Part shown: one piece after another, positions 10,567 to 50,452 of the stretch
How the letters are laid out: the number at the start of each line of letters is the position of its first letter
How positions within the stretch are numbered: the stretch's first letter is position 1
NCBI GenBank assembly: GCA_025782395.1
Contig: JALGZD010000131.1
Coordinates: forward strand, 1-64,000
Length of the DNA: 64,000 bases
Direction of reading: 5' to 3'
Source of the DNA: a bacterium
Lineage (GTDB): Bacteria > Joyebacterota > Joyebacteria > Joyebacterales > Joyebacteraceae
Notes under the pieces: model-generated
Databases searched by the model: none
What the model saw: only the letters and a program-made list of their open reading frames with translations
What the model was told of the DNA's origin: nothing
Translations under genes and position numbers: made by a program

Positions 10567-11922
10567 ATGAAGAGCTACATCTTCAGGGAGTACGACATCC
10601 GCGGCGTCGTCGGCACAGATCTTACCGATGAAGTGGTGCGCGATATCGGTCGTGGCTTCGGTACGTATGTGAGGCGGCACGGCGGGAAGACAATCTCTCT
10701 GGGCGGGGACGTCCGGCACTCGACCAGACCGTTCATGGCGCTTGTCACCGAGGGCGCCAATTCGGTAGGAATAGACGTCGTGGACGTCGGTATGGTCCCT
10801 ACGCCGGCTCTCTACTTCACGCTATACGAACTCCCCATCGATGGTTCCATGATGATCACAGGCAGCCACAATCCTCCCGACATGAACGGGTTCAAGATGA
10901 ATCTCGGCAAGGACTCGGTCTTTGGTGAGGAGATCCAGAAGATCCGCAAGATCATCGAGGACGCCGACTACGAGGTGGGAGAGGGAAGCCGTTCGACCGC
11001 GGAGATACTCGACGCATATACGAACGCGGTGCGTCAGCGCATCCACCTCGAACGACCCCTCAAGGTCGTCGCGGACTGCGGAAACGGCTGTGCGAGTCTC
11101 GTCGCCAGGGACCTTTTGACCGGACTCGGATGCGAGGTGATCTCGCTCTTCTGCGAGCCGGACGGAGACTTCCCCGGCCATCATCCCGACCCGACCGTGA
11201 TGGAGTACATCACCGACCTTATCGCCGCAGTCAAGGAGCACGGCGCCGATATCGGCATCGGCTACGACGGTGACGCCGACCGGGTTGGTGTGGTCGACGA
11301 GAACGGCGAGGTTGTCTTCGCCGACAAGATGCTTGCGCTTCTTGCCCGAGAGGTCCTCGCAAAGGGGCCGGCTGAGATCATCTTCGACGTGAAATGCTCG
11401 CAGGCGTTGATTGAGGATATCAAGGCTCACGGTGGGACACCGACGATGTGGAAGACAGGGCATTCGCTTCTCAAGCAGAAGATGCGGGAGACCGGGGCCC
11501 CGATCGGGGGAGAGATGAGTGGACACATGGTCCTGGCCGACGACTTCTACCCGATCGATGACGCCGTCTATGCATCCTGCAGGATCCTCCAGATGCTGTC
11601 ACGGACAGAGGAGACGCTCTCCCGGATGGTGAGCACGATCCCGAAGTACCATGCGACGCCGGAGATACGCGGCGAGACTGTCGATGATGCGACTAAGTTT
11701 GAGATGGTCGGGAAGGCCGTGGAGTTCTTCAGGGCGAACTACGACGTCATAGACGTCGACGGCGTTCGAATTCTCTTCGGAGACGGCTGGGGCCTGGTGA
11801 GGGCGTCCAATACGCAGCCGGTCATTGTGATGCGTTTCGAGGCCAAGACCAAGGAACGCCTCGTTGAAATCCAGGAGATCGTGACCGCTAAGCTCCGTGA
11901 GTATGGGGAGATACGCTACTAG
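10567..11922 (+). CDS. phosphomannomutase/phosphoglucomutase
   Basis: 451 residues of the alpha-D-phosphohexomutase family (AlgC/ManB type), which interconverts mannose- or glucose-1-phosphate and the 6-phosphate for nucleotide-sugar synthesis. The phosphoserine loop TGSHNPP (Ser100), the Mg-binding DGDADR and the sugar-binding GEMSGH are all present, as is the C-terminal phosphate-binding RASNTQP. The N-terminus YIFREYDIRG is the family hallmark. I use the ATG at 10567 right before it, with GAGAGG upstream; an in-frame ATG at 10537 would add ten unconserved residues. Sugar nucleotides from this enzyme would feed the surface polysaccharide genes elsewhere in the window. Confidence 0.95.
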   Translation: MKSYIFREYDIRGVVGTDLTDEVVRDIGRGFGTYVRRHGGKTISLGGDVRHSTRPFMALVTEGANSVGIDVVDVGMVPTPALYFTLYELPIDGSMMITGSHNPPDMNGFKMNLGKDSVFGEEIQKIRKIIEDADYEVGEGSRSTAEILDAYTNAVRQRIHLERPLKVVADCGNGCASLVARDLLTGLGCEVISLFCEPDGDFPGHHPDPTVMEYITDLIAAVKEHGADIGIGYDGDADRVGVVDENGEVVFADKMLALLAREVLAKGPAEIIFDVKCSQALIEDIKAHGGTPTMWKTGHSLLKQKMRETGAPIGGEMSGHMVLADDFYPIDDAVYASCRILQMLSRTEETLSRMVSTIPKYHATPEIRGETVDDATKFEMVGKAVEFFRANYDVIDVDGVRILFGDGWGLVRASNTQPVIVMRFEAKTKERLVEIQEIVTAKLREYGEIRY

Positions 11923-11930
11923 TAGCCGGT

Positions 11931-11960
11931 GTGAATACCCCCTGACTCTCTCCGTCTAAG
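11931..11960 (+). promoter_or_regulatory. ECF-type promoter of the sigma factor gene (autoregulatory)
   Basis: GTGAATACCCC (11931-11941) followed after 11 bases by CGTCTAAG (11953-11960). The same two blocks with the same spacing occur at 13995-14024. GTCTAA resembles ECF -10 boxes and GAATAC sits at -35, with 15 bases between. The -10 box ends two bases before the ATG at 11962, so transcription must start downstream of it. Confidence 0.7.
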
Positions 11961-11976
11961 GATGCTGCGAGGGATC

Positions 11977-12600
11977 ATGCCTGAGCGCGACCCGAAGGAA
12001 CTCGATCTTGAGAAGGTCCGAGCGAGCCAGGCTGGTGATCGCGAGGCGTTCGACTATCTCATAACGAAGCACAAGGATATCGTCTACGCCGTCGCATTCA
12101 GGTTCGCCAGAGATCAGGATCTCGCTCTGGATCTCGCGCAGGACGTTTTCATCAGGGCATTCAAAGGGATCAAGAGCTTCAAGGGACGTTCGAGGTTCTC
12201 AACTTGGCTCTACCGCATCGCGATCAACACCTGTATTGACTACACGAGGAAGCAGTCACGATCCGTTTCCTCACAGGCCGTTCCTGAAGAGGTAGCCGAG
12301 TACGCTGACAGTGAACCGATCGGGGTCAGGCCTCCCGGCGGGCCGGCGAAGGAGGCCCTGACCGCGGAGCTCGGAGAGCAGATCCAGAAGGCGATCGATG
12401 CGCTCCCCGAGTATCATAAGTCGGTCTTCGTTCTGTACGAGATAGAGGGAATGCCTTACAAGGAGATCGCCGACGTCGTGGGGTGCTCGATAGGAACGGT
12501 CATGTCGCGACTGCATTACGCCCGAAAAAAGCTCAGAACGATGCTCGAGCCGTACGTAGAGGCCGGGCTTGAGGTGACAACGGATCCAGGAAACGAGTAG
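11977..12600 (+). CDS. RNA polymerase ECF sigma factor (RpoE-like)
   Basis: 207 residues with sigma region 2 (EAFDYLITKHKDIVYAVAFR, DLAQDVFIRAF, STWLYRIAIN) and region 4 (LPEYHKSVFVLYEIEG, YKEIADVVGCSIGTVMSR) joined by a 40-residue linker. It directs RNA polymerase to envelope-stress-type promoters. An ATG at 11962 is in frame, but the predicted -10 box ends at 11959, so the transcript would begin near or after it. I therefore prefer the ATG at 11977, preceded by GAGGG. The anti-sigma gene follows four bases after the stop, so the pair is co-transcribed. The promoter shared with the gene at 14111 indicates autoregulation and a local regulon. Confidence 0.93.
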   Translation: MPERDPKELDLEKVRASQAGDREAFDYLITKHKDIVYAVAFRFARDQDLALDLAQDVFIRAFKGIKSFKGRSRFSTWLYRIAINTCIDYTRKQSRSVSSQAVPEEVAEYADSEPIGVRPPGGPAKEALTAELGEQIQKAIDALPEYHKSVFVLYEIEGMPYKEIADVVGCSIGTVMSRLHYARKKLRTMLEPYVEAGLEVTTDPGNE

Positions 12601-12603
12601 ACG

Positions 12604-13158
12604 ATGAAGAGAGTATGCCGCATAGAGCGCTACCTGACGGCCTACGCCGATGGCGAGCTTTCCGTGAGGCTTCGCCGGAAGGTCGAGAAGCATCTGGCCT
12701 CTTGCAGAGAGTGCGCGAGGGAGCTTGACTCGATTCGCGGCTTTGATAGAATCCTCAATGAGGTGCCGACGGCGCCCCCGGTCAAAGACGAACAGTGGGC
12801 GCGGTTCGACCGCATCCTCTCCCAGGAGCTCGACAGGGTGGAGAGGAAGGCTTCGCGGCCCGTTCGGCTTCGTGAGGCCAGGCCCGTCTACGGAGATCCA
12901 CGCCGGCGGGCTCTTGCTGCAGCCGGTGTCTGTGCCGTGGCTGTGTTCGCGTTTGTTGCCATTGGTCCATTTGGAATCATGAACGGTCCTGCTGGTTCCA
13001 GTGGCGGCAATTCCTGTATTGTTGAGTCGCTCGAGACGCTGTCGGTCGGCTACACGCCGATGGCTTTCACGTCGAACGACCCTGAGATGACAATCATCTG
13101 GGTGTTCGCCGAAGAAGTGGACGGGAATATCAGAGGAAACGGTCCCGGCGCGATGTAG
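12604..13158 (+). CDS. membrane-anchored zf-HC2 anti-sigma factor
   Basis: 184 residues. The N-terminal zinc-binding domain has ADGELS then H-x3-C-x2-C (HLASCREC), the signature of ZAS anti-sigma factors. One transmembrane helix follows at about residues 100-122 (AAAGVCAVAVFAFVAIGPFG), leaving a 60-residue exported tail. It should hold the ECF factor at 11977 inactive until an envelope signal triggers release, by proteolysis or zinc/redox change. The start lies four bases after the sigma stop. The periplasmic part, which ends in acidic and Gly-rich sequence, has no family that I recognise. Confidence 0.88.
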   Translation: MKRVCRIERYLTAYADGELSVRLRRKVEKHLASCRECARELDSIRGFDRILNEVPTAPPVKDEQWARFDRILSQELDRVERKASRPVRLREARPVYGDPRRRALAAAGVCAVAVFAFVAIGPFGIMNGPAGSSGGNSCIVESLETLSVGYTPMAFTSNDPEMTIIWVFAEEVDGNIRGNGPGAM

Positions 13159-13255
13159 TGAAAGGGCCGTTGATTCCGTCGGGTTGCTGACGCACACGCA
13201 TGCCGAAGGAGATGTGTGAATTGTCACGTTGTGCGTGAATCCAGCGAAGGACACT

Positions 13256-13777
13256 ATGCGCATCGTTGCTAAGACTCTCCTTACAAGTCTGATCGCTATC
13301 TTGGTTTCCTCTTCGCTTTCACTTGCGAAAGACGTGACCGTCGAGGTGACGTCGATCGCGGCCGCAGCGGTTTCCGCCGAGGCTCTCTCCAGATCCGGCG
13401 GCCCCGCCGTGGACTCCGAGATCGAAGCCTTGGCGCCGAAACTGCAATCGCTCTTTGCCTACAACAGCTACTCGTTCCTCGGGCTCGTCAGATCTGAGAC
13501 CGAGTTCGGTGGTTCTGTCAGACTGGAACTCCCCGAGCACTTTGTGCTCGAGGTAAGGCCCGAGCGCTTCGAGAAAGAGGGGATCGGCCGGATCGAGATG
13601 ATGGTTACCCTCTTGAAGGACATCCGAACAGAGGTAGCCGGAGCGGGACGCGGTCAGCCAAGAGAAGAAATCATCCTCAGGACGAAAATACGGCTTGAGA
13701 ACGGCGGCACCGTGCTACTGGGTGGTCCCCCGATCAGTGGTGGAATACTCGTCCTGGCGCTTTCCGCAAGAGGGTAG
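13256..13777 (+). CDS. hypothetical exported protein of the ECF sigma locus
   Basis: 173 residues with a clear signal peptide (MRIVAKTLLTSLIAILVSSSLSLA) and a mature part of alternating strands, such as GGSVRLELPEHFVLEVRPE. The C-terminal half repeats strand-turn-strand patterns (EEIILRTKIRLENGG, TVLLGGPP, GGILVLALSARG), which suggests a small periplasmic beta protein; I know no family for it. Start ATG at 13256 has AAGGA upstream; the open frame extends to 13229 without a ribosome site. It lies 97 bases after the anti-sigma gene in the same orientation, so it may be in the same transcript and be a target or sensor of the stress response. Confidence 0.65.
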   Translation: MRIVAKTLLTSLIAILVSSSLSLAKDVTVEVTSIAAAAVSAEALSRSGGPAVDSEIEALAPKLQSLFAYNSYSFLGLVRSETEFGGSVRLELPEHFVLEVRPERFEKEGIGRIEMMVTLLKDIRTEVAGAGRGQPREEIILRTKIRLENGGTVLLGGPPISGGILVLALSARG

Positions 13778-14110
13778 AGCAGGGTCGCGCGTGGCGTGGC
13801 GGTGTGTGAGGCGCGCGGGCCGAAGAAGGATAGAGCAGGAGCAGTACAGGAGGCTCTGCAGCACGCGATGTGCGCCCGGCCGGACCAGCGATGGTGCGGC
13901 CGGTTCTGTTTGTGGACTATACTACAAGGCCACAAACTGTGCAATGTGCGCGGACAGCGGGGGGCAAGCCCGCGCACGGCCGACTTGCCCGTTCGTGAAT
14001 ACCCCTTTTGGGCTCGCGTCTAAGACTTCAGCAAGGGGAAGACGGGCACGGTCAGCGGGAAGACTCTCAGATCGTGACACACCGTTGAGGACCCCGGGGA
14101 GGTGATTCCG
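13778..14110. other. intergenic region holding an ECF promoter
   Basis: 333 bases without a gene. It contains an inverted repeat (GTGCGCGG ... CCGCGCAC, about 13947-13976) and the ECF-type promoter at 13995-14024, then an untranslated leader of about 80 bases before the DUF4384 gene. I see no ribosome-site-supported small gene. Confidence 0.5.
13995..14024 (+). promoter_or_regulatory. ECF-type promoter of the DUF4384 gene
   Basis: GTGAATACCCC (13995-14005) then, after 11 bases, CGTCTAAG (14017-14024). Both blocks and the spacing are identical to those upstream of the sigma factor gene, while the intervening bases differ. Confidence 0.72.
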
Positions 14111-15628
14111 ATGATGCGAGTGCTGGAGCTTTCGACATTCCGCCGGTTGGTTTACCGGCTTCTGGCCGCCGCACTTCTGGTGACGGTCCTGACTACATTG
14201 CCTGCGCACGCCGAAGTGACTGTCGGAGCGGCAAGACCCTCCAAACCCGCGGATCCACTGAAGGCTGCAATCGTTCCTGGAACAGATGTCGCAGAGCCGC
14301 TGAAGCCCGCTGTCATGCCGGGGACTGGCGTCGCAGAGCCGCCGAAGGCTGGCGTGCTTCCGGGGAGTGAGGCCGCCGAGCCTCAGCAAGTACCCCCATA
14401 TTTCAAGCATCCAGATGTTGAGCACGTATGGGATCCGCCAGGGGCGCCGCACGGGGGCACTGTAATAGAAGGCGCTCAGGGACGCATCGTTGTCGATCCG
14501 AACCCCGACTGGGGCGATTGGCATGACACAGACGACATCTACTATTACTATCAGCCTGGTGGACTTCGCATCGATGTATGGATAGACCGTGGCGAGTGGG
14601 CGACGTATCGGCCGGGGGAGGAAATATGGGTCTACTTCCGGGTCAACCGCCCCTGCTACGTAACGATACTCGACTACACGACTGACGGAAGGGTGGAGGT
14701 TCTCTATCCAAACAGGTGGTCCAGCTCATCTGGAGTCTATCCGGGACGCGTCTACAGAGTTCCGGATGACTGGAGAAGCTCCCTCCGCATCGCTGGGCCG
14801 GGGGGCATGGAGACGCTGGTAGCCTGCGCTCACGAGCTCCCCTGGCCCAGTGGATCACACGGCCCCTGGCTTCCGTCGTATCGTTCATGGGTGTTCCGTG
14901 GCTCGGTCGGCGGCTGGGGCGGACGTGCGGGCGTAGTGATCGAGGGCGGACACGATCGTCCTTCCTTGCACCGTGGGCGCGTTGTTGTCGGTAAGCCCCG
15001 TGGCCGCGTCCTTGCCGGTGTGCCCAGCGGTCGCGTTGTTGCTGGTGGACCTCGCTGGAACTCCTGGCGCGACTGGTGGCCCGTGCACACCGAATGGCAT
15101 AACTACCCGGGTAGATGGGCCTACGACTCCGTCAGCTTCAGGGTGGCATCGGACTGGTGGGACGATGACTACTGGGGAGGCTACTTGTGGGAGCGGGATG
15201 ACTGGGACGACGATGACTGGGACGACGACTGGGACGGGGGTTCGTGGAACGGTCACGGCCAGGGGAAACCGCTTCTGGATGACCACTTCTGCATGAGTCG
15301 TCCGTCTGATGCGTTTCTCCACGAGATACACTGTCGCGGCGAGGCAGCATACGTGTCGATCGACTGTACCGAGAGCAGGCGCGGAGATCCGACGGAGATA
15401 GTCGGGCGACTGAGTTGGAATGACGGTTGGGGCACAGAGACGCTCTTCCGTCTCGATGTCGAAGGCAGGCACGGGGAGATCCCGAGGGAGGGACGGGTGT
15501 TCGTAACTACCGACGGACCACTGCGTGTCGAGATAGAGATAACCGATGTCAGACTGGTCAAGCCCAATCCCTGGAAACCTCATCGCATCAAATCGATCCG
15601 GTTCAGGGTCAGGGCGACCGGCTGCTGA
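14111..15628 (+). CDS. exported DUF4384 protein with two sets of short repeats
   Basis: 505 residues with a signal peptide (cleavage near AHA-E35). Three 14-residue repeats ending AEP follow (residues 50-91: consensus LKxAVxPGTxVAEP). Next comes a DUF4384 domain, around RIDVWIDRGEWATYRPGEEI and VNRPCYVTILDYTTDG, a beta-sandwich found in exported or surface proteins and in some serine/threonine-kinase-linked proteins. A Gly/Arg stretch then holds three 9-residue repeats (GRVVVGKPR, GRVLAGVPS, GRVVAGGPR), followed by an Asp/Trp-rich segment and a C-terminal beta domain. The ATG at 14111 has GGGGAGG eight bases upstream; the GTG at 14102 overlaps that site. The ECF promoter ahead implies induction by the sigma factor at 11977. 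Confidence 0.82.
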   Translation: MMRVLELSTFRRLVYRLLAAALLVTVLTTLPAHAEVTVGAARPSKPADPLKAAIVPGTDVAEPLKPAVMPGTGVAEPPKAGVLPGSEAAEPQQVPPYFKHPDVEHVWDPPGAPHGGTVIEGAQGRIVVDPNPDWGDWHDTDDIYYYYQPGGLRIDVWIDRGEWATYRPGEEIWVYFRVNRPCYVTILDYTTDGRVEVLYPNRWSSSSGVYPGRVYRVPDDWRSSLRIAGPGGMETLVACAHELPWPSGSHGPWLPSYRSWVFRGSVGGWGGRAGVVIEGGHDRPSLHRGRVVVGKPRGRVLAGVPSGRVVAGGPRWNSWRDWWPVHTEWHNYPGRWAYDSVSFRVASDWWDDDYWGGYLWERDDWDDDDWDDDWDGGSWNGHGQGKPLLDDHFCMSRPSDAFLHEIHCRGEAAYVSIDCTESRRGDPTEIVGRLSWNDGWGTETLFRLDVEGRHGEIPREGRVFVTTDGPLRVEIEITDVRLVKPNPWKPHRIKSIRFRVRATGC

Positions 15629-20120: not shown

Positions 20121-20774
20121 CTACCTGTAAAGCGCCTTGATCGCGGACCAGGATCGTCCCTCAACGGGTACCGCGTTGTCGATCCAGATGTACATCCCGA
20201 AGTGCCATGTGTGCAGCGTCTCCGGGCAGTTCACGGTGAACGAGCCGTTGTAACTGCCGGTGCCGGCGTAGCCCTCGTAGATGCCAGTGCCCTGCCGGAT
20301 GATGACGATGCATCCGCTGAAGCTCCCAGCGCAGAACTCATCGTCGTCGAGAACGCCGTCGTTGTCGTCGTCCGTCACGAGCATCTGGATGGTGCAGACG
20401 CCCGTCATCGTACCGCCGAACGTGTCGTCGACGATGTGGAGCGAGTTCTGTTCGGGGAGGCCGTGGTTGACGTCGATGTACCCGATCCAGTAGCCGGGCG
20501 TCCCGGGCGTGTAATTGCCGGCGAAGAACGTGTCCCAGAAGTACTGCGTTCGGGCGGCCGGCATCGAAGTATCCGGCCAGAGGAGATCCGGGACCGTGAT
20601 GGTCCAGGAACCCTCGGTGATGTCGCCACCTGGGTCCATGGCACCCGTGAACGTCGGAGGGCTGTCGTTGATAAAGTCGCCGTAGCCGGTTCCGAAGAAC
20701 CACACGAAGATCTGGTCGGCGGGGGCCGCTGCGGCCACGAGCAGGATCAGTGCGAGCGTAAGTAGCAGACGCAT
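20121..20774 (-). CDS. exported protein with C-terminal SWSAIKALYR tag
   Basis: 217 residues with a signal peptide (MRLLLTLALILLVAAAAPA) and a mature, aromatic- and Gly-rich beta protein with an acidic Ca-site-like run (TDDDNDGVLDDDE). No family is recognised. The last 15 residues, PVEGRSWSAIKALYR, match the ends of two other exported proteins in the window (36451 and 37115: PVEDVSWGAIKALYR, PVENASWGAIKALYR). The codons differ, so the peptide itself is conserved. Start ATG at 20774 follows GAGAGGAGAG; the longer frame to 20897 lacks a signal peptide. The gene converges on the GGR gene. Confidence 0.72.
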   Translation of the reverse strand: MRLLLTLALILLVAAAAPADQIFVWFFGTGYGDFINDSPPTFTGAMDPGGDITEGSWTITVPDLLWPDTSMPAARTQYFWDTFFAGNYTPGTPGYWIGYIDVNHGLPEQNSLHIVDDTFGGTMTGVCTIQMLVTDDDNDGVLDDDEFCAGSFSGCIVIIRQGTGIYEGYAGTGSYNGSFTVNCPETLHTWHFGMYIWIDNAVPVEGRSWSAIKALYR

Positions 20775-34334: not shown

Positions 34335-36299
34335 ATGTCCAGATTCGAGAATGTCGTTGTTCTGGCCATCGCCGTTGTGGCGGTCTCTTCAGCCGCCGCC
34401 AGTCCGGTAACGCTCATATGGGACTACACAGCCGGCGACCATATTCGCTGCGTCTCGCCGATCGAGGACATGAACGGCGACAACATGCCGGACGTGCTGA
34501 TCGAGATCGACCACACGGGTCTTGCGAGCGGCCATCTCAAGCTTATGAGCGGCAGCGACGGCGCTGAGATCTGGGGCGTCTCCCCGGTCGGAGGCGTGAG
34601 TGGTGGCTGCGGCTACGGCGACATGTGCCTGAACACATCGCCCGACCTGAACGGTGACGGGAAGTTCGAGGCGCTCCTCGGGACCTCCTGGGGTGGTCGA
34701 ACGGCCTACGCCATCCTGGCGGATGAGGATGGCGCCGTGATGTGGGATTTCGACACGTACACCGACGATCCCCCGTCCGGGTGGATCTACTCCATCGACT
34801 GGATCCCGGACGTGACTGGAGACGGGGTTCCGGACATCATCTTCGGCTGCGGCAGTGACAACAACAACGCCTACTGTGTCGACGGAACGGACGGGAGCAT
34901 GATCTGGAAGCTCCAGACTCCCGATGCGGTCTACGCGGTGGCTCGGATCGGTGACGTCAACGGGAACGGGACGACCGATGTACTCGTGGCGACCGGGGAC
35001 ACGTACGGCGAGTACACGTACTGCGTGGATGGTGGAAGCAGTGGTATTGCAGGTTACATATGGCGCTATCACGTGGATGACTCGAGCTACTGTGTCACCG
35101 GCATAGAGGACGTGAATGGCGACCTCATCCCCGATGCCATCATCGGAGTATGGGACTCCGCCAGGAGTGTCATCTGCGCCAGCGGCGCTGATGGCAGCCA
35201 GATATGGACTCATGCAATCGGAACCTACGTGATGCGGGTTGTTCCAATCCAGGACCTTAACGATGATGGGAAGATGGAGGTGCTCGTCGCTTCCTGGGAC
35301 AACGCCATCATCTGTCTCGATGGCCGAACGGGAAACGAGTACTGGAATGTCCCGACCGGGTCCACAAACGGTGGCGACGTATGGACGCTATGGACGCTCG
35401 ACGACGTCGACTACGACGGCTACGATGACGTGATTGCCGGTTCATTCGATCTTAGGGCCTACTGCGTGAGCGGACGAACGGGCACCGTTCTCTGGGACTA
35501 CACTGTAGGAAACCGCGTCTACTCAGTGCGTGGGATTCCCGACGTGAATGGCGACGGAATAGGCGATGCTATCGTTGGGACACAGTACTACGGAGGAACC
35601 GGCGGCAAAGTCTTCTGCCTCGACGCCGATGGAGACGGGACTGTTGTTCCCGAGATCGATGAGTTCGCCTGTCTGATGGATGGTCGCGCCGTCTCGCTCT
35701 CGTGGAGGGCATCGGCGATTGCGATAGAGGGATTCAATGTCTATCGTGCGGAGGTGGAATCATCTGTGCCCGCAGATGAGTTTCGTTCCGCACTGATGGA
35801 GGATGGCATCGAACGCATCCCTGAGATCCTCGCCGCCAGGGCCGGAGGTGATGAACGAGGAGGGTTTTCGCGGCTGAACGGGGTGCTTGTCACCGAACTC
35901 ACATACCGGGATATGATGGTTGTGAACGGCACGCGGTATGCTTACCTCATCGGCGCTGTTCACGCTGATGGCTCAGAGACCCTGGCGGGGCCGATGGAGA
36001 TACTGGTGGACTTCGTAGTACCGAAACTTCTGCTCTCGCCCACGATGCCGAACCCGGCTGTCTCGGGTCTGACTCTTGAGTTCACGGCTCCTGCCGGAGC
36101 GAGTATCGCGGCTCAAGTCTACGACCTCTCCGGGCGGCTCGTGGCTCAGATCCCTGTGTGTGTCGATCTGGAGGGGAGTGGGAAGGTCGCGTGGGACGGC
36201 CGCGCTGACGATGGCACCGATGTGGCTGCCGGTGTCTATATGCTCAGAGTTCAGGCCGGAGGCGAATCGTCGGGCAGGAAGGTCGTGCTCGTGCGCTGA
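34335..36299 (+). CDS. exported beta-propeller (FG-GAP/PQQ-like) protein with FlgD-like C-terminal domain
   Basis: 654 residues. After a signal peptide (ending SSAAASP), about eight repeats of 40-50 residues alternate an FG-GAP-like Ca loop (DVNGDGIGDAIVG, DMNGDNMPDVLIE) with a PQQ/WD-type strand (GTVLWDYTVG). They form a propeller of about 440 residues. A fibronectin-like domain (GFNVYRAEVES) and a FlgD-like tail (PNPAVSGLTLEFT, DLSGRLVAQIP, AAGVYMLRVQAG) follow. The tail predicts T9SS-like export or outer-surface attachment. ATG start with GGAGGAAG upstream. A bidirectional terminator follows. Confidence 0.87.
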   Translation: MSRFENVVVLAIAVVAVSSAAASPVTLIWDYTAGDHIRCVSPIEDMNGDNMPDVLIEIDHTGLASGHLKLMSGSDGAEIWGVSPVGGVSGGCGYGDMCLNTSPDLNGDGKFEALLGTSWGGRTAYAILADEDGAVMWDFDTYTDDPPSGWIYSIDWIPDVTGDGVPDIIFGCGSDNNNAYCVDGTDGSMIWKLQTPDAVYAVARIGDVNGNGTTDVLVATGDTYGEYTYCVDGGSSGIAGYIWRYHVDDSSYCVTGIEDVNGDLIPDAIIGVWDSARSVICASGADGSQIWTHAIGTYVMRVVPIQDLNDDGKMEVLVASWDNAIICLDGRTGNEYWNVPTGSTNGGDVWTLWTLDDVDYDGYDDVIAGSFDLRAYCVSGRTGTVLWDYTVGNRVYSVRGIPDVNGDGIGDAIVGTQYYGGTGGKVFCLDADGDGTVVPEIDEFACLMDGRAVSLSWRASAIAIEGFNVYRAEVESSVPADEFRSALMEDGIERIPEILAARAGGDERGGFSRLNGVLVTELTYRDMMVVNGTRYAYLIGAVHADGSETLAGPMEILVDFVVPKLLLSPTMPNPAVSGLTLEFTAPAGASIAAQVYDLSGRLVAQIPVCVDLEGSGKVAWDGRADDGTDVAAGVYMLRVQAGGESSGRKVVLVR

Positions 36300-36450: not shown

Positions 36451-37020
36451 TTATCTGTACAAGGCCTTGATAGCGCCCCAGGAGACATCCTCCACCGGAT
36501 TACCTCCGCAGTCTCCGGCGAGAGGTTGCTTGCCCACACCGCCGTGGGAAAGGACGCAAAAAATCTGCACGCTGTCATCGCAGAACACGATCCAGCCCGG
36601 GAACTCCGGATGATAGGTGATCTCGATATCACCCGGTGTGCCCTGGTAGAAGCAATGCAGCACAGCGATAGCTATCGGTTGCATGTCGGGTGTTATGCAT
36701 TCCGTCGAAGTCAGTGTGATGCCCGTCTCATAGTCACCGACTACCACATAGCCAGGCAGGAGGATCTCGAAACTCGTAGCAGAACTCATCCCCGGCGTTA
36801 CCGCCAGCCCGAAGGATATGGCTGTGAATCCCGGCCCGCCGAGGAATGTCTCGACCATGACATAGGCATCAAAGGGCGTATACGGCTCCGGGTCAATTCG
36901 GTGATCGTACTGGGGCGGATCGAAGTCGATGTAGATGTTGTCCGCAATGATCGGGTTCGCAAGCGCCGTGCCGAAACCCAGCACCGCGACCAGTATCGAA
37001 ACAATCACAGTACGCATCAT
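36451..37020 (-). CDS. exported protein with C-terminal SWGAIKALYR tag
   Basis: 189 residues. A signal peptide (VSILVAVLGFGTALA) precedes a cysteine-containing beta protein of unknown family. It resembles a cohesin-like or choice-of-anchor beta sandwich (VMVETFLGGPGFTAISFGLA ... IEITYHPEFPGWIVFCDD). The end reads CGGNPVEDVSWGAIKALYR. The last 15 residues match those of the next gene (37115) and the one at 20121. Two adjacent ATGs follow AAGGAGG; I use the first (37020). The frame to 37053 lacks a ribosome site. It lies 94 bases after the gene at 37115 in the same orientation, so the two may be co-transcribed. Confidence 0.78.
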   Translation of the reverse strand: MMRTVIVSILVAVLGFGTALANPIIADNIYIDFDPPQYDHRIDPEPYTPFDAYVMVETFLGGPGFTAISFGLAVTPGMSSATSFEILLPGYVVVGDYETGITLTSTECITPDMQPIAIAVLHCFYQGTPGDIEITYHPEFPGWIVFCDDSVQIFCVLSHGGVGKQPLAGDCGGNPVEDVSWGAIKALYR

Positions 37021-37114
37021 TCGCACCTCCTTGTGAGCCTGATCCCAAACCACGCACTATCATTGTACCATAGAATACCCTGATTCTCCAGTCCGCGTTC
37101 GTCGGCCTCACCTG

Positions 37115-38239
37115 TTACCGTGGATTGGCCCGATAGAGGGCCTTTATCGCGCCCCAGGAGGCGTTCTCGACCGGACTGCCGCATGCGTCGCAGCCCATAC
37201 CGTGAGCGCCTATCGATTCCTCCCAGTCATTGATGGCTGGAAGAGCCGGCGAGTCGGCACAAAGAGTGAAATCCAGGGCTCCGGAGTCGCAGAAGAGAGG
37301 AGGCTCCGACAGATTGTCGTAGTGATTGCCGCAGAGCACGTCGACGGGCAGGTTGCCGTAGAAGATACAGTGAGTGATCTCGGGCTCGCTGCTGAGGCAG
37401 TAGACCCCCCTGCCGCGCAGTCCGTAGGCCACGATCGTGTTCGTAATGAGCGGATTGGCGATCTGGCAGTAGATACCGCCTCCGTTGAAGGCATCGCCCC
37501 CATAGATCGTGCAGTAGGTGATCGTGGGATTGCCACCCTGGCAGTGGATGCTCCCCCCGACCATGTCGGCGGAGCAGTTCGAGATCGTGCATCCTGTGAT
37601 CGTTGACTCCGAGTTCGAGCACCAGATGGCGCCGCCGGAGAAGCCCGCTTGGCCTCCTTCAAACATGCAGTCCTCTATGACAGAGTCTGCGAACCCGGCG
37701 CTGATGCCGGCGCCGTAGTCGGCGGTGCAGCCGGTGAACGTGCAGCCAAGAATATGGGCCGATGCCGAGGCTATGGCCACGGCTCCGCCGGTGCTCGCGT
37801 GACTGTTCTCAAAGATGCAGTTTCTGATGGTGATGCCGGAGCCTGCGGCACAGTAGATCGAACCACCGTTTCCGCCCGCGTAGCCGTTTCTGATCGTGAG
37901 GCCTTCGATGATGCTGGTCTGGTTCTCACCCGAGTGGAAGTAAAATGCGCGGTCGTAACCTTCGCAATCGATGATCACATCTCCGGCTCGGGGCATGAAC
38001 GCGGAGATACACAGGTTTCTTCCTGCGAAATCGAGACCACGGTTGTTTTCGCCGGTGTAGATGCCCGGGGCGACCAGAATCGTGTCGGCTTGGCTGACAT
38101 TGGTATCGGCTATGGCCTCGGCGATGGTCAGCCAGTCCCCGTTGCCTTCAAGATCCACCAGGAAAGTGTCTGCTACCGCGGGCAGAGCGATGATCGCGAA
38201 CGCCAGTGTGGCTGCAAGCAGGCAAGCGCTGTTTTTCAT
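37115..38239 (-). CDS. exported right-handed beta-helix protein with SWGAIKALYR tag
   Basis: 374 residues with a signal peptide (LAATLAFAIIALPAVA). It opens with a pectate-lyase-like first turn (GNGDWLTIAEAIADT, ADTILVAPGIYTGENN). Eight or more beta-helix coils follow (GLTIRNGYAGGNGGSIYC, NCIFENSHASTGGAVAI, and so on), as in NosD/DUF1565-type right-handed beta-helices. The end reads CGSPVENASWGAIKALYR followed by ANPR, so the tag is four residues from the true C-terminus here. ATG start with GAGAGGA eight bases upstream. It probably acts on the cell surface, perhaps binding polysaccharide. Confidence 0.83.
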   Translation of the reverse strand: MKNSACLLAATLAFAIIALPAVADTFLVDLEGNGDWLTIAEAIADTNVSQADTILVAPGIYTGENNRGLDFAGRNLCISAFMPRAGDVIIDCEGYDRAFYFHSGENQTSIIEGLTIRNGYAGGNGGSIYCAAGSGITIRNCIFENSHASTGGAVAIASASAHILGCTFTGCTADYGAGISAGFADSVIEDCMFEGGQAGFSGGAIWCSNSESTITGCTISNCSADMVGGSIHCQGGNPTITYCTIYGGDAFNGGGIYCQIANPLITNTIVAYGLRGRGVYCLSSEPEITHCIFYGNLPVDVLCGNHYDNLSEPPLFCDSGALDFTLCADSPALPAINDWEESIGAHGMGCDACGSPVENASWGAIKALYRANPR

Positions 38240-46603: not shown

Positions 46604-46661
46604 ATGCGGGAACCTCAGAGGAGTGCGTCGCGTGGGATCTGAGGACGCATGGACTGACCTG

Positions 46662-46690
46662 TTGAAATGCGGTACGAATCGTGCTATCAT
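46662..46690 (+). promoter_or_regulatory. promoter for the C1A peptidase gene
   Basis: -35 TTGAAA (46662-46667), 17-base spacer, -10 TATCAT (46685-46690). The leader is about 100 bases and holds the hairpin at 46722-46748. Confidence 0.65.
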
Positions 46691-46721
46691 ATTGTTTGTC
46701 AAGGATTTAGAGACCGGTTGC

Positions 46722-46748
46722 CCCCCTGCGAGCGGCAGCGGGGTTTCT
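46722..46748 (+). promoter_or_regulatory. attenuator-like hairpin in the C1A gene leader
   Basis: CCCC-CTGC/GCAG-C-GGGG stem (one bulge) followed by TTTCTT, between the promoter and the start codon. It looks like an intrinsic terminator inside the leader; I find no ligand-binding consensus. Confidence 0.35.
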
Positions 46749-46795
46749 TACCCATTTTGTGCTTCCACACGTGCGTCAGCAAGGAGCGGAAACAA

Positions 46796-49700
46796 ATGCA
46801 TTCTGGAATGCGGAGACCTTCACGCTTTCTCGTCGGCCTCTTGCTCGTGTCGGTCGCAGTTCTCGTCATGGCGAGCCTGCCTGCCGTCGCGAGCGTCGAC
46901 CGGGAGGTTTCGATAGAGGAACAGGCAAGGATCGATGAGATCAACGCGCGAATCGCCGAGATGGGATACGACTGGATTGCGGGACCGACCGGCGTGTCGA
47001 ACCTGTCGCCCGAAGAGATGGCCAAAAGGCTCGGTGGCGAGATCCCGGCGGACATCGCTGCGATCTTCGACACGTTGCAGCCACCACCCGAGGTCCGGGG
47101 GATGACATTTCGCAGCAGCTTTGACTGGCGTGACTACGATGGCGTGACCCCGGCCAAGGACCAGGCCGGCTGTGGGTCGTGCTGGGCGTTCGGCGCGTGC
47201 GGCGCCACTGAGGCTCATGTCAGGATCTACGAGGGCGTGCTGCTGGATGTCTCGGAGCAGCAGACGATCGACTGCAATGATCAGGGCGCCGGCTGTGATG
47301 GTGGGTGGGCAGGCGCCGCCTACGCCGTTCATCATAACCCGGGCGCGGTGAGCGAAGACGATATTCCCTATCTGGCTACCGACGGCAACTCCTGTCGCCA
47401 GAAGGCCTACGACAAGATCGCCATCATTGACGGAACCGGCAACGTCTCAAACTCGGTGGCGAGTCTGAAGTATGCCGTCGAGACCTACGGTCCTCTCTCG
47501 GTCGGCATGTGTGTGTACGACGACTTCTACAGCTACACAGGTGGGTGCTACGAGCACGCAGGCACCGACTGGACCAACCACGTAGTACTGATGCTGGGGT
47601 GGGACGACGACATGTGCGGCGGCGAGGGCGCATGGATATGTAAGAACAGCTGGGGCAGTGACTTCGGTGAGGGTGGGTTCTTCTACATCAAGTACGGGAC
47701 ATGCCGCATCGGCTCAGGCGCGATGCGACCCGTGAACGCGCACATCCCGAAGACCATACTCGTTCCCGACCAGTACGCATCGATCCAGACGGCGATCGAT
47801 AATTCCAACAGAGGTGACGTTATCAAGGTCGCCGAAGGCACCTACGCCGAGAACATCGTAATAGGAGACTACAGGTCGCTTATCGGTGGCTACGATGCAA
47901 CTTTCACATACCGGGATCCGGATGCCCATCCCGTGATCATCAACGCCGGAGGATCTGGTCACGGCATCTACGTGGAGAATGAAGAGAAGATCGTCATCGA
48001 CGGAGTCAAGGTGACGAATTCAGGGTCGGGCTACACGGGCATCTACCTCAAGGACGTCGATGCGATCGTCAGGAATGTCGAGGTCTACGGCTGCTGGAAG
48101 GGTCTGGTAGCGACCTACGGAAGCGCGGGCACCGATGGGGATCTCTACATAGAGATGTCGAGCTTCCACGACAACGAGATGACCGGTATTGTCCTCAACG
48201 ATCCTCCAAACACCAACATCAGCCTTGCCTATGTCGCGAGCTACGACAACGCCGGCGCCGGTATCTACTTATACTCGACGGATGCTGAGATCGTGAACTG
48301 CACGCTTGCAGGGAATGGCCTGGAGGGCGGCATAGATCTGCGTGTGTCATCGGGCAACGTCATCAAGAACAATATCATTGCATCGAACACCGGCTATGGG
48401 ATTACGTGCACGAGCGCGACTCCGGACTTGAGCTACAACGATGTCTGGGACAACTCGAGCGGCAACTACAACGGCTGCAGCGCAGGCGTGGGCGACACAT
48501 CCGTCGATCCCGTCTTCTGCGACGCGGCTGCCGGGTTCTACGCGGTGCACGCGACCTCACCGACCGTGACCGGAGGTGAGGGAGGCACAGCGCAGGGCGC
48601 TCTTGGCATCGGTTGCCCGGAGGGTCCGCAGGATCTCCTGCTGGCACAGGACGGTGCTTCGATGCTTCTTTCGTGGAGTCGGCCGCCGTGGCGGCGAGCC
48701 ACGGTCGATTACTACATCGTATACCGTGATACGACGGCGCTTCCAGGCACGCAGATAGCGACCGTTGCTGCGCCGGACACGAGCTTCGTGGATATCACGA
48801 TCCCGGCGTGCGAGCTTAACTACTACCGCGTGTCCGCTGTTGACGACAGCGGTCTTGAGGGCGCGCCGTCCAACAAGGTATTCGGGAGTCTCTGCTACGA
48901 TGCACCTTCAGATCTCGACGTGCAGTTCACGGAGGGTGCGAACGAGATGTCGTGGGGGCCGGCAGAAGGCCCGATCGACTACTATGTCATCAATCGTGGC
49001 AACGTCATCGCTGAGCCGGAATCGCTGGCGTGGGTTTCGGGCGCAGACACCTCTTTTGTGGATATCTGGACGTCCCACTGCCCGAGGGACAATTTCTCAT
49101 ACGAGATCATCCCGGTCTACGATACCGGCTGGCACGGGCAGGCGTCTGACCTGATCTTCGTGGACCCCGCGCCATCTCCGCCGTCAGGCATAGTCGCGGA
49201 GTGGGTCGGAGACGACATCGTGCTCACATGGGATGAGAACTGCGAGAGCGATTTCAGACGATACTGGGTCTACCGCGACAGCATCCCGTTCTCTGATCCC
49301 ATTGACTCGGAGCTGCTCGTCGGGTTCACCGCCGAACTCACGCACACTGACGAGGGCATGCTCCCGCACACCACGTGGTTCTACCGACTGGCGGGGAGCG
49401 ATGCCAGCTCCCAGAAGAGCGTCTATTCCGAGATGCTCTGGCTCGGCACCGGCCAGAAGCTCGAAGTGCCGTCGCCGTACGCCACGATCCAGGCGGCTAT
49501 CGATGCGGCATCGGCCATCGACACCGTCTGGGTGAGCCCTGGAACGTACGATGAGAACATCACTCTCAAGAACGGGGTTCTGGTGATGAGCTCGGACGGC
49601 GCGGCATCGACGACGATACGCTCATCAAGCGGAGCGGTCGTGTCCGAGACCGGTCTCGGTGATCTTACGCTTCTCGATGGCTTCACGGTTGACGGGCAAG

Positions 49701-50452
49701 GGACGGCTGTGAGTGGTCTGGATGCGACATCGGGTACAGTACGCGTTGCCGATTGTGTCTTCCAGAACTGCGACAACGGTGCGAGCTTTGACTTCGGGGC
49801 TCTGTTGACGATGACGGGAAACACGTTCACTCTCTGTTCGAACGGCGTGACAGTTGCTGATTCCGCAGCCCCCTTCTTCTCGGGCTGCACGTTCTCCGAC
49901 AACTCGTTCACCGGCATCTACAACAACGGTGACCCCGGTCCTGAGGTTGGACGCTCACTGGCGGAGGCCAACGACTTTACGAACAACGCGTACTTCCAGG
50001 TGTTCAATCTGAACGCCGCGACCGTGGATGCGGACTACAACTACTGGGGCAATGTGTGCGTGGAGGCGAGCTGGTTCTACGGTCCTGTCGACTACATCCC
50101 ATGGACTGACGCCGCGCACGAGAACACCTACACCGAGTGCCCGAACTCAGTGCCGGATGACGGAGTGCCCGAGAGAGCATTCTCGAGCTACAATTTCCCG
50201 AACCCGTTCAATCCGACTACCGCGATCAGGTACGCGATCCCGGCGCCGGGCGGGCGCGTTGTCCTCTCGATCTACGATCTTTCCGGGCGCAGGGTGAAGA
50301 CACTTGTGAACGCCGATGTTGCGCCGGGCACGTACACGGCGACCTGGCGAGGTCTTGACGACAACGGTCGACAGCTCGGATCCGGCGTCTATTTCTACAA
50401 GCTTGAGGCGCCGGGGTTCAGCGAGCAGAGGAAAATGGTGATGTTGAAATAA
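46796..50452 (+). CDS. exported papain-like (C1A) peptidase with beta-helix domains and FlgD-like tail
   Basis: 1218 residues. A signal peptide and a propeptide-like stretch of about 100 residues precede a papain-family domain (about 105-320). Its catalytic Cys129 is in GCGSCWAF, His262 in TNHVVLMLGW and Asn284 in CKNSWG, with the usual oxyanion Gln just before the Cys. A right-handed beta-helix (about 325-600; DQYASIQTAIDNSNRGDVIKVAEG), two or three fibronectin-like domains (about 600-880), a second beta-helix (about 890-1120) and a FlgD-like domain (FPNPFNPTTAIRYAIP ... GSGVYFYKLEAPG) follow. It should be a secreted, surface-attached cysteine protease with carbohydrate-binding-like solenoids. 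ATG start with AAGGAG upstream. Confidence 0.93.
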   Translation: MHSGMRRPSRFLVGLLLVSVAVLVMASLPAVASVDREVSIEEQARIDEINARIAEMGYDWIAGPTGVSNLSPEEMAKRLGGEIPADIAAIFDTLQPPPEVRGMTFRSSFDWRDYDGVTPAKDQAGCGSCWAFGACGATEAHVRIYEGVLLDVSEQQTIDCNDQGAGCDGGWAGAAYAVHHNPGAVSEDDIPYLATDGNSCRQKAYDKIAIIDGTGNVSNSVASLKYAVETYGPLSVGMCVYDDFYSYTGGCYEHAGTDWTNHVVLMLGWDDDMCGGEGAWICKNSWGSDFGEGGFFYIKYGTCRIGSGAMRPVNAHIPKTILVPDQYASIQTAIDNSNRGDVIKVAEGTYAENIVIGDYRSLIGGYDATFTYRDPDAHPVIINAGGSGHGIYVENEEKIVIDGVKVTNSGSGYTGIYLKDVDAIVRNVEVYGCWKGLVATYGSAGTDGDLYIEMSSFHDNEMTGIVLNDPPNTNISLAYVASYDNAGAGIYLYSTDAEIVNCTLAGNGLEGGIDLRVSSGNVIKNNIIASNTGYGITCTSATPDLSYNDVWDNSSGNYNGCSAGVGDTSVDPVFCDAAAGFYAVHATSPTVTGGEGGTAQGALGIGCPEGPQDLLLAQDGASMLLSWSRPPWRRATVDYYIVYRDTTALPGTQIATVAAPDTSFVDITIPACELNYYRVSAVDDSGLEGAPSNKVFGSLCYDAPSDLDVQFTEGANEMSWGPAEGPIDYYVINRGNVIAEPESLAWVSGADTSFVDIWTSHCPRDNFSYEIIPVYDTGWHGQASDLIFVDPAPSPPSGIVAEWVGDDIVLTWDENCESDFRRYWVYRDSIPFSDPIDSELLVGFTAELTHTDEGMLPHTTWFYRLAGSDASSQKSVYSEMLWLGTGQKLEVPSPYATIQAAIDAASAIDTVWVSPGTYDENITLKNGVLVMSSDGAASTTIRSSSGAVVSETGLGDLTLLDGFTVDGQGTAVSGLDATSGTVRVADCVFQNCDNGASFDFGALLTMTGNTFTLCSNGVTVADSAAPFFSGCTFSDNSFTGIYNNGDPGPEVGRSLAEANDFTNNAYFQVFNLNAATVDADYNYWGNVCVEASWFYGPVDYIPWTDAAHENTYTECPNSVPDDGVPERAFSSYNFPNPFNPTTAIRYAIPAPGGRVVLSIYDLSGRRVKTLVNADVAPGTYTATWRGLDDNGRQLGSGVYFYKLEAPGFSEQRKMVMLK

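Follow-up and report, generated by a model that had tools for sequence, protein, structure and literature searches.

A short peptide tag shared by unrelated exported proteins, very probably an address label in place of a larger C-terminal domain

The question raised by this locus is why three exported proteins, two of which are neighbours of different predicted fold, should carry the same short peptide at or near the C-terminus. The window (the whole stretch of DNA analysed, 64,000 nucleotides) is part of contig C217 of a 2.9-Mb genome, and the three proteins bear the sequence PVExxSW[GS]AIKALYR. The features concerned are as follows.

36451..37017, minus strand: 188-amino acid exported protein with a predicted cohesin-type beta sandwich and a C-terminal tag (ORF; signal-peptide-like start; AlphaFold and Foldseek)
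36454..36498, minus strand: tag PVEDVSWGAIKALYR, exact C-terminus of the 36451 protein (profile match, E 6e-12; predicted detached helix, residues 174-187)
37115..38239, minus strand: 374-amino acid exported right-handed beta-helix protein, tag followed by ANPR (ORF; weak NosD/pectate-lyase-like Pfam match; beta-helix model)
37130..37174, minus strand: tag PVENASWGAIKALYR of the 37115 protein, four residues ahead of the stop (profile match, E 1.3e-11; helix at residues 362-370 in the model)
20121..20774, minus strand: 217-amino acid exported protein, tag-ended, with no assigned fold (ORF; signal-peptide-like start)
20124..20168, minus strand: tag PVEGRSWSAIKALYR, exact C-terminus of the 20121 protein (profile match, E 5.7e-10)

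The tag was confirmed from the ORFs on all three proteins, with the codons quoted for it in the initial annotation. That annotation had placed it at the C-terminus behind a Cys-Gly pair; the tag itself was present in each case, but the 37115 protein (ending ..KALYRANPR) extends four residues beyond it, and the 20121 protein, in which the tag reads SWSAIKALYR, lacks the Cys-Gly pair. A degenerate DNA pattern of the tag core matched the window 3 times, compared to 0.01 matches expected in dinucleotide shuffles. The two neighbouring proteins were, as had been stated, predicted to differ in fold (cohesin-type beta sandwich and beta-helix), and the best PDB matches to the 36451 body were cohesins (Foldseek on the AlphaFold model, E 2.7e-5). 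The 36451 family (alignment A3) is predicted to be cohesin-type, yet the genome has one Dockerin_1 match; a cellulosome reading of the fold was dropped on the grounds of this single dockerin, and a dockerin-like sibling at locus L092 was rejected as evidence for a cellulosome, as it is not homologous to its tagged neighbour.

The whole genome was scanned with the degenerate pattern of the tag core, which gave 12 matches as against none with the reversed pattern, and with a profile built from ten tags, for which no stop codon was required; the latter identified approximately 50 places at E <1e-3. When the ORFs were read, the tag was found at the exact C-terminus in approximately 40 cases, within 12 residues of the end in seven more (1-12 extra residues after it being tolerated in some carriers) and internally in two proteins. 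The signal-peptide score was positive in at least 38 of 48 tagged ORFs, several of the remainder being truncated by contig ends, while 15 of 49 ORFs in the window were positive by a similar crude score. Enrichment at the C-termini of exported proteins, on which the original proposal depended, was thus found decisively in this genome and its relatives. Tagged proteins were small (median 319 amino acids); the FlgD-tailed ORFs of the window encode 604-1264 amino acids. A logo of 170 tags read P-V-E-x-x-[ST]-W-[GST]-x-I-K-[AS]-[LM]-Y-R, in which only the positions other than W, K, I, L, Y and R are free observations, because the collecting expression fixed W and K and restricted the other four. 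Profile A2 comprised 38 sequences, one of which (Planctomycetaceae) is probably a chance sequence.

The bodies of 45 tagged proteins fell into 23 clusters without detectable similarity to one another, and included beta-helices (14), cohesin, lamin-tail, FG-GAP, CARDB and choice-of-anchor J types, among others. Synonymous codons differed between copies of the tag and the DNA 3' of the stop codon was unrelated; it is therefore the peptide which is under selection. In the 36451 and 37115 families conservation was 0.87-0.90 in the tag core compared to 0.43-0.50 in the body, and the W, K and Y of the tag were invariant in the 36451 family. These values, the 23 unrelated bodies and the loosely modelled tail (see below) agree with the earlier view that no larger domain is involved. 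The tag is a peptide, neither part of a larger domain nor a DNA element. Accidental translation of a mobile DNA element, or of a repeat that arose by chance, would account for the many copies and for one insertion into an internal loop, but is considered extremely improbable given the varying synonymous codons, a DNA similarity which stops at the stop codon and the conservation of the tag in old protein families whose bodies have diverged. Rickettsia palindromic elements, a translated mobile repeat, lead one to expect similarity of copy and flank at the DNA level, which the tag does not display.

The tail of the tagged proteins searched matched no Pfam or NCBIfam family, in agreement with the initial annotation, which knew of none. 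There was no significant match of the tag profile to the PDB, and the motif was absent from the literature searched, which was mainly open papers, such that an earlier sighting elsewhere is possible. Judged by these sources, the tag is apparently undescribed.

AlphaFold models of the 36451 and 37115 proteins had confident bodies (approximately 90) and loose tails (approximately 50 or lower). In both models a short helix was drawn over the tag, set off from the body by a flexible or disordered linker. Confidence in this helix was low (pLDDT about 50) and its helical moment was modestly above that of shuffles; the tag is likely to form a helix, as far as such models indicate. KALYR was also considered as a type IX terminal strand, with its Lys near the end, but this homology was dropped in view of the helix in the models and of the existence of variants without Leu (IKGRYR, IKADYR and IKSKYR).

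For a tail-swap test, the tag was removed and the bodies were compared by BLAST with untagged ORFs from the stretches in hand. Five homologous pairs were identified in which one member carries the tag and the other a FlgD/Por tail. The clearest is on G000:C2, where two neighbouring genes encode cohesin-domain proteins; one of these bears the tag, and the other a FlgD_ig tail which also weakly matches Por_Secre_tail. FlgD-tailed proteins are also encoded in the window itself, among them the following.

46658..50452, plus strand: exported papain-family/beta-helix protein with a FlgD_ig tail (Pfam PF00112, PF13229, PF13860; tail-swap BLAST)
34335..36299, plus strand: exported protein with a FlgD-type tail (..GRKVVLVR), neighbour of tagged genes (ORF translation; tail type by eye)

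The body of the 46658..50452 protein is in part homologous to a tagged protein of locus L061. The evidence is good both for the presence of the tag on exported proteins and for its substitution for the FlgD/Por tail, and the tag is very probably an address label, borne by dozens of unrelated exported proteins per genome in place of a larger tail domain. Short C-terminal hydrophobic or basic peptides can act as chaperone or protease handles or in self-assembly, and the predicted helix is detached from the body; a purely periplasmic role of this kind, in which the tag would be bound by a chaperone or by a protease of quality control, or would mediate self-assembly, and would take no part in sorting, is nevertheless very unlikely, as the tag replaces the FlgD/Por sorting tail in homologues and is restricted to certain lineages.

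Type IX C-terminal domains (CTDs) of types A and B (Por_Secre_tail and CHU_C) and the FlgD_ig tail resemble the tag in being C-terminal and in being carried by many unrelated Sec-exported proteins. These tails and the tag also both have a conserved Lys close to their end and tolerate extension at the C-terminus (PMC11285876), and in the present data one can take the place of the other on homologous bodies. These CTDs are, however, beta sandwiches of approximately 50-80 residues with motifs B and D, while the tag is a predicted helix of approximately 15 residues without these motifs or a sequence match, and hence lies outside the definition of a type IX CTD (beta sandwich, motifs B, D and E, match to Por_Secre_tail/CHU_C), although tag genomes do encode SprA and PorV/PorU. 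The shortest type IX signals described, the CTDs of Prevotella intermedia, are a shortened signal which, in a published model, uses the PorV shuttle; at 43-55 residues they form three beta strands and contain motifs B, D and E, none of which the tag has (PMC11969387). PEP-CTERM, GlyGly-CTERM and LPXTG tails are likewise short C-terminal signals found on many exported proteins per genome, but in these a signature motif is combined with a transmembrane helix and a basic end, and the tail undergoes cleavage, while WGxIKALYR contains no hydrophobic stretch and the tag can be internal. The encapsulation peptides of microcompartments, also short terminal amphipathic helices behind a flexible linker, target cytosolic cargo, whereas tag carriers begin with signal peptides.

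On the proposed mechanism, a flexible P-V-E linker would lead into an amphipathic helix of two turns, W-G-x-I-K-x-L-Y-R, capped by Ser/Thr, and this helix would dock on a putative receptor beyond the inner membrane. The tag would in this way perform the task of the FlgD/Por domain of approximately 80 residues, namely passage across the outer membrane and/or surface display, and the likeliest route would be a type IX-like machinery with an extra PorV-family outer-membrane protein as shuttle. Receptor, type IX route and cell-surface destination are inferences only. The reading as a whole, a portable targeting peptide of Sec-exported proteins which does the FlgD/Por-tail job on a type IX-like route via a PorV-family shuttle, is tentative and is given slightly less than an even chance. 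Against the type IX route is the fact that its known signals are beta folds, while the tag is a predicted helix of about 15 residues.

Position was informative in one family, four members of which are tag-ended while two tandem paralogues have lost the C-terminal tag.

G000:C13, about 11,200-14,600: tandem internal-tag paralogues (L001 and L002), with C-termini SPYRRF and SPYAKF

In each of the two, a loop of the first jelly-roll has an insert of 32 residues which contains one tag. The pair is 56% identical overall and 9/10 identical in the tag core, and codons match at 54% of identical residues. As two proteins bear the tag internally, a free C-terminus would not be required; it seems from the sequences of this one paralogue pair, in one assembly, that the tag works without it, which would speak against transpeptidation and for docking. 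Of the sorting or anchoring signal first envisaged, what stands is a short, non-hydrophobic peptide on exported proteins; its strictly C-terminal position does not. A terminal tail cleaved by a sortase or protease, also raised at the outset, is not supported, given the two internal tags and the extensions of 1-12 residues, and no dedicated protease which tracks the tag was found in a search for the C25 family. In its most explicit form, a PorU-like (C25) or other protease would cut the PVE linker and join the body to a surface glycan. The disordered linker upstream of the predicted helix would suit such a cut and C25 proteases occur in every tag genome (4-29 copies), but in the two proteins with an internal tag cleavage there would remove most of the protein, no cut-site residue is conserved beyond PVE, and C25 is also present in the tag-less Fulvivirga; cleavage is therefore regarded as improbable.

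A stronger rival, though still unlikely, is that the tag is an anchor and not an export signal, its amphipathic helix holding proteins that are already external on a surface partner (candidates being the outer membrane, a surface layer or a scaffold protein), whatever their route. Retention of the tag in an internal loop, tolerance of short extensions, the amphipathic shape with K and R, and the adhesin-like nature of carrier bodies of the beta-helix, cohesin and choice-of-anchor J types, among others, are all in keeping with this. The tag, however, interchanges with the FlgD/Por tail, which elsewhere is a secretion signal, and the invariance of W, K and Y in the 36451 family is more specific than membrane binding needs.

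With regard to the type IX-like route preferred here, SprA was detected with a full-length model in 19/19 genomes tested; its apparent absence from UBP1 and Coatesbacteria (PF14349) was discarded as an artefact of sensitivity, as the full-length model detects it in both. The PorV family was likewise present in 19/19 genomes, with 7-18 members per tag genome compared to 4 in Fulvivirga. SprA and PorV do not single out the tag, because both occur throughout this part of the tree. PorU-type C25 proteases (gingipain/PorU family) were found in 23/23 genomes and adjoin PorV in many tag genomes; they are expanded in tag genomes, but their distribution does not follow the tag, given their presence in all tag genomes tested and in Fulvivirga. 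In a tree of 41 PorV-family proteins, true PorV grouped with Fulvivirga, and two further groups were common to tag lineages with no sampled Bacteroidota member. These extra paralogue groups are, on this phylogeny, candidate shuttles only, within a machinery which is not exclusive to tag genomes. PorV recognises type A signals, while those of type B are read by PorP/SprF shuttles (PMC12618676), and type IX signals have a near-invariant Lys close to the end (PMC10994853) and tolerate C-terminal extension; a further signal-shuttle pair is therefore plausible. Tag genes were not consistently adjacent to PorV-family genes, and no obvious linkage was seen. Around PorV paralogues at G000:C67:46152-48090 (L294, a tandem pair), L297 and L298, a gene order common to UBP1 and Krumholzibacteriota was observed, in which a large protein, one end of which resembles an outer-membrane barrel, precedes a protein ending IGKFVIIR/IGKFAIIK and then the PorV paralogue; ExbD-like genes (by eye) lie nearby in two of the three loci.

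Tags were found in 20/20 genomes of the phylum of the window's genome (31-91 each) and at least one in 78/80 genomes of the phylum of the Krumholzibacteriota genome G026, while none was found in 148 genomes of the Bacteroidota, the phylum of Fulvivirga. Candidatus Effluviviaceae is the name borne by a genome (locus L068) from the GTDB family to which the window's genome belongs. In a pattern scan of named genomes, the matches listed were mostly to Candidatus Eisenbacteria and MAGs, and also to Krumholzibacteriota, UBP1, Latescibacterota and Coatesbacteria records, many of these genomes having 4-22 tags each by per-genome counts. Pattern matches in Fulvivirga and Kiloniella were rejected as true tags, as they lie in tiny ORFs. 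In the most specific form of the proposal, a new class of targeting signal, a position-independent helical address peptide of approximately 15 residues would bind a dedicated PorV-family shuttle and so bring up to 30-90 proteins per genome, in at least two phyla, through or onto the outer membrane. This form is rated somewhat less likely than the main reading above.

If true, many exported proteins of several uncultured lineages, seep bacteria included, would share an address signal that had escaped description, and the simple motif of the tag lets annotators mark probable surface proteins in tag lineages. Were a type IX route used, the minimum requirement for its signal would be reduced to a short peptide, one compact enough to serve as a handle for displaying proteins at the surface. 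With tail swapping and internal relocation, the targeting hypothesis can be tested directly.

Some minor observations were also made. The same tagged protein end was found on low-coverage or short contigs of a Gemmatimonadaceae MAG (L056) and of another MAG (L096), and the single tag in each is probably contamination. A gene adjoining a tagged Krumholzibacteriota gene (L057:578-1207) ends in STWGAIKSLINE, possibly a decayed or variant tag. In a related genome, the orthologue of the 37115 protein (L099:4860-6053) is divided into two ORFs by an in-frame stop.
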